A DNA stretch of 64,000 bases from Natronorubrum halophilum (GTDB taxonomy: Archaea > Halobacteriota > Halobacteria > Halobacteriales > Natrialbaceae), in the NCBI RefSeq assembly GCF_003670115.1, contig NZ_QQTY01000007.1, forward strand, positions 62,001 to 126,000, written 5' to 3'. Positions 11,148 through 47,008 of the stretch are shown here, piece after piece (position 1 is the first letter of the stretch; every line of letters begins with the position of its first letter). Under the pieces are notes generated by a model. It was not told where the DNA came from, did no database searches, and worked only from the letters and a program-made list of their open reading frames with translations. A program made the translations under genes and the position numbers.

Positions 11148-11161
11148 AACGTTAGTCTCGG

Positions 11162-12280
11162 TCACTCGTTTTCGAACACTACGGATGTCTCCTCGGCCAG
11201 TTCGCTGGCTTCGATGTGCGCGTACATCTGCGAGGTCGTCCGCGGGTCGGCGTGTCGGAGCACCCGTTGTGCTGCCGCCGCACCGTGCTCGCGGTAGACG
11301 GCTTCACCGACGCCGCGCCTCGCACCGTGGGGCTTCAGGTACGCTCCGTCGACGTCGATCTCCGCGTCTTCGCACAGCCGCTTCAGGACAGATCGACCGC
11401 CGTTCGTCGAGAGAGACGGTGGAACCACACCGTGTTGCCGGTGTAACTCAAGGGGTTCACCCGCCGATGGGTCGGCTTCGTCCGGCAGGTTGCTGTACAG
11501 CGACGGTGCGTGACTCGTCGCGAACACCGGCCACTCTGAGGACGGCGGCTTCAGTGCGTGCTCGAGGCGCTCGAGTGGCGGGTGTGCCTGTCTCGGAAGC
11601 TGGACCTCTTCGTCCTCCTGTTGACTCTTCCCCAGGACGTGTAGCTGGTTGTTTTCAAGGTCGACGTCGCCCCATCGCAGGCCGTTCCTGCGGTCGTCTC
11701 GTGGATCGCTCAGGATTTCCCCACCTCGAACTCCGGAGTACGCGAGGACGTACACGAGCGCGCGATCGCGCAGTTCCTCGAATGCGTCGAGTCCGTCCTC
11801 GTCGACGGCCCGGTGTGCCCGCCGATCGACGTACCGAACCAGCGCCTTCCGATCCTTCGGCGACCAGAACTGCTGGTCGCCGCTCGTCTTCGTCGGTCGC
11901 GGCGGCAGCTCGTCGAGCGCGATTCCTTTCTGTGCAGGGTTCTCCTCGAGCCATTCCCAACGTACGCAGTACGAGAGGAACGCAGAGACGTAGTCGTAGT
12001 ATGTCCACGCGGTCGAGGCTGAGATGTCATCCTCGTCACCCGGTTTCTTCCCGGCGTCGACGCGGCGGGAGAGGTACTTCGCGTACCGGGCCGTGTTCCG
12101 CTTGCTGATCTGCTCAACAGTCTCGACGTCGCGACCTTCGAGGTGCTGTCGCCAATGTGTCAGTACGCGCTCGAGGGCGTCACGATAGTTCCCGGATTTG
12201 CTTCCCGACTCGAGGAAATCGCCGATGGCGGTCTCGAGGGCGTGTCCCTCGGGATTAGGTCCTGGATCAGTGGGCACCAT
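11162..12280 (-). CDS. Tyrosine recombinase / phage-type integrase, apparently intact
   Basis: The 372-residue protein has a SAM-like core-binding domain (about 15-115, with STAWTYYDYVSAFLSYCVRW) and a catalytic domain (about 138-365). Catalytic residues read R185 (YSGVRGGEI), K218 (LGKSQ), H318 and R321 (PHGARRG), H343 (LRHADPRTT) and Tyr nucleophile Y353 (SQMYAHIE). The set is complete, so strand exchange is expected. It is of the haloarchaeal XerC/D-like type. A perfect 13-bp inverted repeat lies 34 bases upstream of its ATG. No direct repeats marking element ends were identified, so whether it integrates a plasmid or virus or inverts DNA is open. Confidence 0.92.
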   Translation of the reverse strand: MVPTDPGPNPEGHALETAIGDFLESGSKSGNYRDALERVLTHWRQHLEGRDVETVEQISKRNTARYAKYLSRRVDAGKKPGDEDDISASTAWTYYDYVSAFLSYCVRWEWLEENPAQKGIALDELPPRPTKTSGDQQFWSPKDRKALVRYVDRRAHRAVDEDGLDAFEELRDRALVYVLAYSGVRGGEILSDPRDDRRNGLRWGDVDLENNQLHVLGKSQQEDEEVQLPRQAHPPLERLEHALKPPSSEWPVFATSHAPSLYSNLPDEADPSAGEPLELHRQHGVVPPSLSTNGGRSVLKRLCEDAEIDVDGAYLKPHGARRGVGEAVYREHGAAAAQRVLRHADPRTTSQMYAHIEASELAEETSVVFENE

Positions 12281-12313
12281 TCGTTCGGATTACCGTACAG
12301 TGTCGACCCGCAT

Positions 12314-12353
12314 AAATTCACTGTGCGTTACTACACTAATGCACAGTGAATTT
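12314..12353. repeat. Perfect 13-bp inverted repeat upstream of the integrase
   Basis: AAATTCACTGTGC at 12314-12326 is followed by a 14-base spacer and then its exact complement GCACAGTGAATTT at 12341-12353. The repeat lies 34 bases 5' of the integrase ATG, in the promoter region. Arm length resembles tyrosine-recombinase core sites (two inverted 11-13-bp arms around a spacer), although the 14-base spacer is longer than in dif or loxP. It could equally be an operator for a dimeric repressor. Confidence 0.85.
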
Positions 12354-12580
12354 CTCGATCGTTTAGAATGGTCGATTTCAGACCCTCGAGTGCTGTACCG
12401 CAGTAATAGAGGAAAATCCCCACATTGATAAATCGCATATCGGTATACGAAATCGGGGCGGTCCTCGAGACCGTCAGAATCGACGAACGCGTTTTGGCGA
12501 CCGGTTTTTCGACGGTTTCTTTCCGGAATCGAAATACCGAAACACAGATTTAGGGTGGTAGAGCAGTACCGTACGAGTAG

Positions 12581-12721
12581 ATGATTCGCGGCGTCGACCA
12601 CACCGACCGTTCTCGTCGTTCCATCGCCGACCGCGAGTGGACAGCGCGCATCAGAATTGGAGCGGGACAACGAGCCCGTGGCGTCAATCTGAATCCGATT
12701 GACACGGTGATCGAGCCGTGA
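12581..12721 (+). CDS. Possible 46-residue leader peptide/micro-ORF before the second recombinase
   Basis: An ATG at 12581 (MIRGVDHTDRSRRSIADREW) runs 46 codons to a TGA at 12719-12721 that overlaps the GTG start of the next gene as GTGA. Such overlaps mark translational coupling throughout this window. The peptide is Arg-rich and has no recognised domain. It may be a real small protein, a coupling leader, or chance. Confidence 0.25.
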   Translation: MIRGVDHTDRSRRSIADREWTARIRIGAGQRARGVNLNPIDTVIEP

Positions 12722-13863
12722 CCGAATCCGACACGGATGTCGCCGTTGTCGACGCCGTCGACGCCTATCTTCAGCGGAAAGCTGTCGGCGATCCCGACGG
12801 GGCGGGAGCGGGCACCTACGCATCGAACGCCGAGTCGATCCTCCGGCGCTGGGCCGACTGGCTCGAGCGCGAACACGGGATCAGTTCGCTGTTTTCGCTT
12901 CGCGTCGAGCACATGCGCGCCTACGCCACCGAACTACGAGCACGGTCCGACCGCGGCGAGTACACGGCCTCGACCGCTGGGACGTACTACGCGGTTGTCC
13001 GAGCGTTTTGCTCGTGGTGCGTCCGCGGCGGCATTCTCGAGTCGAACCCGGCCGCGACCGACGAAGCCGAATCGGCGCTTCCGGCCGCCGAGAAACGCCC
13101 CGAAAGCGAGTTCTGGACGGCGACCCAGCGGCGACGCCTCGAGACGGCCGTTCGCGAGCATGCACTCGAAGCCGCGACCGACCTTCGCGACCGCGACGAA
13201 CGGTGTAATCGCCTGCGGGAGTACGCCATGGTCGCGTTGCTCGCCCACTCGAGCGTTCGGGGCTCCGAACTGTTTCGGGTCCCTGACGACGAGCGACGGG
13301 CGGGAGCGACGTGGGAGGACGTCGACTTTTACACGGGAACGATCCGCGTCCTGGGGAAATCCCAGCGCCTCGAGGACGTACCGCTTCCGGCCCCGGCCCG
13401 GACGCCGCTGCGACGCTACCGGGTCGTTCTCGATCCGCCGTCGAACGACTGGCCGCTGTTTCCGACGCGACACGCCCCCTCGATCGCACGCCGCGTAAAG
13501 ACCGTGCTGGCGGATCGCGGTCACACTGATAGGGAGATCGACGCGCTGTTCGCGGATGCGACGGCGAGCCAACTCGCCCGCGAACGATCGATCGCCCCGC
13601 CGACGATCACCACCGAAGGGGCCCGGTCGGTACTGAAACGACTCTGTAAGGAAGCGGACATCGACGTCGACGGCGACTACCTGACGCCGCGTGGCGTCCG
13701 CGGTGACCACGACGAGACGGATCGCTACCGGCGCGAAGCGACGGCCTCGAAACCGGTACTCCGCGCATCGGTGCTCGAGCAGGCGCTCGCGGTTCGAGAA
13801 CCCCATCCGTCGATTATCGACGTCGGCTCGAGCGGATCCGACGACGGGTCGGAGGACGGCTGA
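12718..13863 (+). CDS. Tyrosine-recombinase paralogue with degenerate active site
   Basis: The GTG at 12718 gives 381 residues that parallel the intact integrase: core-binding part with STAGTYYAVVRAFCSWCVRGG (about 85-105), then HSSVRGSELF with R181, LGKSQ with K214, DWPLFPTRHAPS and GARSVLKRLCKEADIDVDG. After that the catalytic part breaks down. The HxxR block PHGARRG is TPRGVRGD here (R325 in place of His). The segment matching LRHADPRTTSQMY reads LRASVLEQALAVRE, with no His or Tyr. It may still bind DNA but should not cut it. The two genes are divergent around the inverted repeat, so this protein could be an architectural partner or regulator. Confidence 0.8.
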   Translation: MTESDTDVAVVDAVDAYLQRKAVGDPDGAGAGTYASNAESILRRWADWLEREHGISSLFSLRVEHMRAYATELRARSDRGEYTASTAGTYYAVVRAFCSWCVRGGILESNPAATDEAESALPAAEKRPESEFWTATQRRRLETAVREHALEAATDLRDRDERCNRLREYAMVALLAHSSVRGSELFRVPDDERRAGATWEDVDFYTGTIRVLGKSQRLEDVPLPAPARTPLRRYRVVLDPPSNDWPLFPTRHAPSIARRVKTVLADRGHTDREIDALFADATASQLARERSIAPPTITTEGARSVLKRLCKEADIDVDGDYLTPRGVRGDHDETDRYRREATASKPVLRASVLEQALAVREPHPSIIDVGSSGSDDGSEDG

Positions 13864-46298: not shown

Positions 46299-47008
46299 GC
46301 GAGCAGGGTATCGCAACCGTTCGTCTCGGGCGACGGCGGCGAATCCGACCGGAGCGATACTTACGGGGAGTACGTTCGCCGAACCCGACCGTCCCCTCCC
46401 TGCCGGTCGATACGCAGACCGCTGAGAACGGCCGTTCCCGCGTTCTTGAACCCGTTTCCGGTCAAACTCGTACGTTTCGGCCAGATCCGTATCGGAGAAG
46501 GCCCGAATACTACGAGAGCAAGGTTTCTCGAGAGAGACCCGAACGGCAACGGAATCGCGAAACGGAAAACGATCACGAAAACAGCCCGGCAAGGCCAGGT
46601 ATTGGCCGTTTAACCCTATATTCAATATATTTTAGAGCGTTTGAACACTTATCTCCACCATGCATGGTTATTGACTGCTCGATAAGCTTTATTATTGGAC
46701 AGAGAGTACTCGTGCATGAGGTGGTAATGATATTCGAACCGACCCTGATGAACCCATCCGTAAGGTAACCATTGTGTCCTGTGACACCATATCCCTGTGT
46801 GGATCCGCAACGACGACACAATGAATACGTCAACCTCAGATTCTATATCCGATCTTCGGCTTTCGCTCTTCTTCGAATAAGTCGCCTCCGAAATTACTCG
46901 AGGACCCGTGCGTTCCGACCGCCGTTTGCGGCCCGGGTTCGACAGCGCAGCGTCCATCGCCGAATCGCACAGTGAAAGGTACGTCCGTTCGTGGTCCGTT
47001 ATCCGAGT
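46299..47008. other. 710-bp intergenic region, A/T-rich in its second half
   Basis: No gene is supported. Positions 46610-46880 are unusually A/T-rich for this window and contain several TATA-like blocks (TATATTTTAG near 46626, TTTATTATTGG near 46688). Small frames on both strands show no motif and atypical codon use. It may hold the promoter for the GlpA-like gene at 47009, or the residue of an inserted element; no terminal repeats or transposase fragment were recognised. Confidence 0.45.

Follow-up and report, generated by a model that had tools for sequence, protein, structure and literature searches.

A candidate Xer/dif-like multimer-resolution cassette on haloarchaeal secondary replicons

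Introduction

The cer site of ColE1 and the psi site of pSC101 are plasmid sites with about 200 bp of accessory DNA on one side, held at a fixed phase, and they use the XerCD recombinase of the host. Other plasmids encode a tyrosine recombinase that adjoins its own resolution site, as in Cre/loxP of P1 and ResD/rfsF of F; the lox site has a 13-8-13 layout and comes without accessory sequence. In archaea, dif sites such as that of Pyrococcus have an 11-6-11 layout and do not adjoin xerA (PMC2958812), and the integrase of SNJ2 targets the end of a tRNA gene with a short att site (PMC8371274). A review counts 12 xerC/D-like genes in Haloferax volcanii and considers their role in replication termination unsettled (PMC7776575).

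Here we follow up a palindrome next to an integrase gene of Natronorubrum halophilum, which lies in a stretch of 64,000 nucleotides (hereafter the window) on a 159-kb contig. The original prediction, made from the letters of this stretch alone, described a perfect 13-bp inverted repeat between two divergent recombinase genes and offered three roles for it: core recombination site, invertible promoter or autoregulatory operator.

Results

The repeat is present exactly as predicted, with AAATTCACTGTGC at 12314-12326 of the window, its exact complement at 12341-12353 and a spacer of 14 bp between them. A repeat search of the window extends it to 17+17 bp with one mismatch and a 6-bp centre, and a 12-6-12 core (12319-12348) within 17-bp arms describes it better (Table 1). 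No other perfect 13+13 inverted repeat with a spacer of up to 20 bp exists in the window, and among 100 simulated windows (first-order Markov) 4 had any such repeat. The distance from the integrase ATG (12278-12280), given earlier as 34 bases, is 33 by our count. The TATA-like box that abuts the inner arm belongs to a W-TTTA-Y motif conserved at the equivalent position in nearly all homologues.

Table 1. Features at and around the palindrome, in window coordinates
Feature	Position	Strand	Basis or remark
Tyrosine recombinase (integrase), 372 aa	11162..12280	-	ORF; Pfam; residue alignment
33-nt leader separating ATG from site	12281..12313	-	sequence
TATA-like TTTAT abutting inner arm	12312-12316	plus strand	sequence
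Full inverted repeat, 17-6-17, one mismatch	12314..12353		sequence and repeat search
Integrase-proximal core arm CACTGTGCGTTA (plus strand)	12319..12330		homologous-site alignment
6-bp centre CTACAC (GTGTAG in integrase sense), asymmetric, presumed crossover region	12331..12336		centre more variable than arms
Integrase-distal core arm TAATGCACAGTG (plus strand)	12337..12348		homologous-site alignment
Distal motif TATACCGATATGCGATTTATC (family consensus TATAGCNNTATANNATTTATA), presumed accessory-factor site	12427..12447	-	99 bp from core
XerD-like pseudo-recombinase, core gene beside mrp antiporter genes	12718..13863	+	10-genome presence; active-site loss

The integrase matches the Pfam models Phage_integrase (9.3e-10) and SAM-like (6.6e-5) and, in an alignment with 27 homologues, retains R185, K218, H318, R321, H343 and Y353. 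Five of these catalytic positions are invariant over the 27 homologues and H343 is replaced by N in three, so that with its RKHRHY set complete the protein is an active-looking tyrosine recombinase. It is not XerA by the curated cut-off, scoring 39.7 bits with the archaeal XerA model (NCBIfam NF040815) against a required 220. The second gene is indeed divergent, as first described, but it is not a working recombinase: all 15 orthologues compared lack the nucleophilic Tyr and two His. It is a catalytically dead paralogue, universal in haloarchaea, and does not belong to the cassette. It is present in all 10 genomes of the genus. A copy also occurs in every closed genome examined, mostly on the main chromosome and adjoining antiporter genes. 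A search of solved structures by sequence found nothing, and IMG/VR and a phage collection held no close relative.

The palindrome is shared with orthologous integrases. The same architecture stands at a fixed position before 76 of the 108 homologous Natrialbaceae genes scanned, the count being of integrases that give a site by an automatic rule, and it recurs on plasmids of Halobacterium (pNRC100), Haloarcula, Halorubrum and Halorussus, across five haloarchaeal families. From the end of the site to codon 1 there are usually 38 bp; other subfamilies have 58-70 bp. On pNRC100, where the homologue is VNG_RS12505, the arms TGGTTTGGTTTA and TAAAACAAACCA enclose the centre GAACAG, and the Halorubrum carrier is a megaplasmid with a ParA gene close to the module. 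In the homologous sites, two inverted arms of 11-12 bp flank a 6-bp centre, the layout of Xer/dif-type systems and not that of Cre/loxP with its 8-bp spacer. Arm classes follow integrase subfamily: the window has the class CACTGTGCATTA/TAATGCACAGTG, and others are CACAGTACATTA, TACTTTGCATTA, CACACTTGATTA, TACTTGTTTAAA, CACTGTGTCAAA, TACTGTGTATTA and CACTGTGCATAA. Over 46 integrases, similarity of the arms correlates with integrase identity at r=0.64, that of the centre at 0.39 and that of the outer flank at 0.16, the order predicted for arms bound by the protein and a freer crossover region. Further matches in G058:C66, G094:C2:566628, G025:C10, G028:C4:112895 and G070:C6 lack the distal motif or leader and are probably due to chance.

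In most of the 76 modules the TATAGCNNTATANNATTTATA motif recurs on the side away from the integrase, either 87-88 or 98-100 bp from the core. The two distances differ by about one helical turn, as expected for a phased protein-DNA complex, and they give the module a predicted one-sided accessory sequence at fixed helical phase, as at cer and psi. The integrase stop codon and a point about 200 bp past the core bound the homology between modules, and the genes outside are unrelated and often encode transposases; the mobile unit thus comprises integrase, site and flank, about 1.4 kb in all. About 20 bp past the distal motif some modules carry an outer block, GCTAAACCCGCTGTAGTCTCAACTTCC (e.g. L074 5850-5900, L233, L197, L202), and this block and alternatives such as CATCCTCCGAAGTTGTGG are common to modules of different integrase subfamilies and even families. 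The outer block has no Rfam match, and we rejected the idea that such blocks are leaders of a conserved divergent gene, as the flanking genes are not conserved.

The antiporter region near the palindrome has its matches on Haloterrigena and Natronorubrum plasmids of 161-214 kb, and the 159-kb contig is therefore most likely a haloarchaeal secondary replicon of about 160-215 kb. The module of the window has a conserved zinc-ribbon-like ORF on one side and the antiporter-side core gene on the other. The interval 11150-12510 is an insertion hot spot, where related Natronorubrum and Haloterrigena plasmids hold other integrase modules or other genes. In a survey of 49 closed or near-closed genomes, most integrases of the palindrome-linked family reside on secondary replicons, which range from 20 kb to 1.1 Mb. 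By our own tally, which takes every contig except the largest as a separate replicon, at least one is found on about 48 of the approximately 79 secondary contigs from 32 genomes; some contigs have two, and about 31 of the 79 have no detected module. Such an integrase is present on 4 of 39 main chromosomes. All seven genomes that consist of a single contig have the dead paralogue only.

The earlier remark that no second copy was noticed in the window holds for the whole 4.67-Mb host assembly (8 contigs), in which neither the pair of 13-bp arms nor the 18-bp core has another match at up to three mismatches (for the arms, in total) and the half-site ACTGTGCRTTA has no further exact match. An isolated 10-mer match at 46967-46976 of the window was discarded as a second site, having no second arm. 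The palindrome is therefore single in the host (G000), as a system with one site per replicon would have it; among other replicons a minority hold two sites and some none. Since a single copy is what dimer resolution predicts, the absence of a second does not count against a recombination role. On another contig of the host, of 175 kb, a second, diverged integrase (G000:C6:136769-137940; L148, L121) has its own site, in which CACTTGTTTAAA and TTTGACCAAGTA enclose TACCAG.

Discussion

Of the roles first proposed, that of a core recombination site is strongly supported by the constant place before orthologues, the arms that track the recombinase family and the 12-6-12 layout, and the palindrome is very probably the core site of the adjoining tyrosine recombinase. 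We think it rather probable that the whole is a self-contained, replicon-borne, Xer/dif-like cassette for multimer resolution with one-sided, cer/psi-like accessory DNA, whose most likely job would be to untangle plasmid dimers. The architecture suggests that two integrase protomers would bind the 12-bp arms and exchange strands across the 6-bp centre, so returning to the monomeric state those dimers of their own replicon that arise by homologous recombination, a task that Xer/dif performs on chromosomes and cer/psi on plasmids. The flank of about 200 bp with its phased distal motif would serve as accessory sequence that favours resolution. Integrase bound at the inner arm, beside the TATA box of int, would probably repress int too. 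Points that weigh against the resolution reading are the secondary contigs with no module or with two, the four main chromosomes that have one, and the usual place of the site next to its recombinase, which is not so for dif.

The main rival is integration, in which the palindrome is the attP core of an integrative plasmid or element whose replicon inserted into a chromosomal attB. In its favour are the annotation of the gene as an integrase, the main-chromosome location of four site-bearing homologues (L141, L029, L160, L019), and several integrases that keep only a half-site, broken at the border of arm and centre. Integration at the core, however, would part integrase, core and distal motif, which are contiguous in nearly all genomes. 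It would also leave split sites and need an attB, but our searches revealed neither: the host assembly holds no attB-like sequence and no attL/attR partner for the palindrome, and the 64 kb of the window contain no tRNA gene. On this evidence we regard integration as unlikely. At L080 (G038:C8), L130 (G023:C2) and L131 (G028:C2) the break falls exactly at the arm/centre border and the far arm is unrelated DNA. Such half-sites could be recombination junctions or the result of promoter-constrained decay; they were dropped as attL/attR integration products, as no attR-like partner was located for them.

The resolution reading can be carried further. We speculate, with considerable doubt, that these are swappable "replicon identity" cassettes of haloarchaeal megaplasmids and chromids, in which diverged recombinase-arm pairs would act as orthogonal resolution codes and a phased accessory complex, in which the dead XerD-like paralogue may be a non-catalytic partner, would form on the distal motif. 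By eye, the 6-bp centres of co-resident replicons seem to differ strikingly in some genomes (G095, G101, G069, G109), as if by design. This idea was given up after a permutation test over 125 sites of four arm classes, a few of them probably chance matches: same-class sites within one genome share their centre in 6 of 41 pairs, in line with chance, for which the permutation mean is 4.3. The result weakens enforced specificity and leaves the resolution idea unweakened. In one genome, class-e sites on two secondary contigs are identical, centre TACCAG included (G028:C3:214607-214634 and G028:C4:57465-57492), and recombination between these replicons should be possible.

A palindrome that serves purely for repression of int, bound by the integrase or another regulator and with no crossover, is an improbable account of the whole. 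As a second role autoregulation is plausible, given that the inner arm abuts TTTAT and that the distance to the start codon is constant; as the sole role, which the original prediction had allowed, it fails to explain why intact sites are kept where the integrase is dead or gone. Such sites occur in five genomes of a single genus (G023, G025-G028), where an intact class-d integrase keeps a half-site with one arm lost, and a full site with 0-1 arm mismatch and the distal motif lies 19-64 kb away on the same replicon, adjoining a decayed or lost integrase. Retention of these near-perfect distant sites speaks for a recombinase that acts on a site anywhere on its own replicon, and against an operator pure and simple. 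We had taken these sites for stand-alone, integrase-free ones, but most adjoin decayed integrase remnants, and the claim was reduced to retention of a site beside a dead gene. Against an operator alone also stand the pNRC100 site, 282 bp from the annotated integrase start with a small ORF in between, the arm classes that follow the recombinase, and a layout that is that of recombinase cores.

An RNA hairpin in the 5' leader of int, controlling translation or termination, could draw on a potential stem of 17 bp and on a longer transcript begun at the TATA-like distal motif; it is very improbable, given that three central pairs are consistently broken in class-c sites (e.g. TACTTTGCATTA/TAATCACAAGTA) although their inner and outer bases persist, that the sense strand of the window has an A-C mismatch, and that Rfam gave no match for four related loci. 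An inverted repeat adjoining a recombinase could suggest an invertible element or an end of a shufflon-type switch, but with no second site or half-site in the assembly either is scarcely credible, and the invertible promoter first suggested finds no support.

Haloarchaea have many genome copies and several large replicons, and how their circular replicons stay monomeric becomes directly testable with this cassette. It offers a concrete, sequence-defined recombinase-site pair that occurs across families and on the model plasmid pNRC100, and the family of recombinase-arm pairs may serve as orthogonal tools in halophiles.

Its parts resemble known systems; among open-licence papers we found no description of haloarchaeal plasmid integrases with an adjacent dif-like site, that is, of this recombinase-plus-site cassette on many large haloarchaeal plasmids. 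Like cer and psi it has about 200 bp of one-sided accessory DNA, here predicted, at fixed phase, but it brings its own recombinase on the plasmid where those sites borrow XerCD from the host. A recombinase encoded on the plasmid beside its site is shared with Cre/loxP and ResD/rfsF; unlike 13-8-13 loxP without accessory sequence, the present site is 12-6-12 with a phased distal motif. With the SNJ2-type integrase (PMC8371274) it has in common a haloarchaeal tyrosine recombinase and, compared by site context, differs in that no tRNA or split att was found, whereas SNJ2 targets a tRNA end. Archaeal XerA/dif (PMC2958812; PMC8371274) shares the inverted arms around a 6-bp centre, the single tyrosine recombinase, the one copy per replicon and the conserved flank; XerA, however, is chromosomal and lies away from dif, whereas the integrase of the window (39.7 against 220 for XerA) is plasmid-borne and sits beside its own site.
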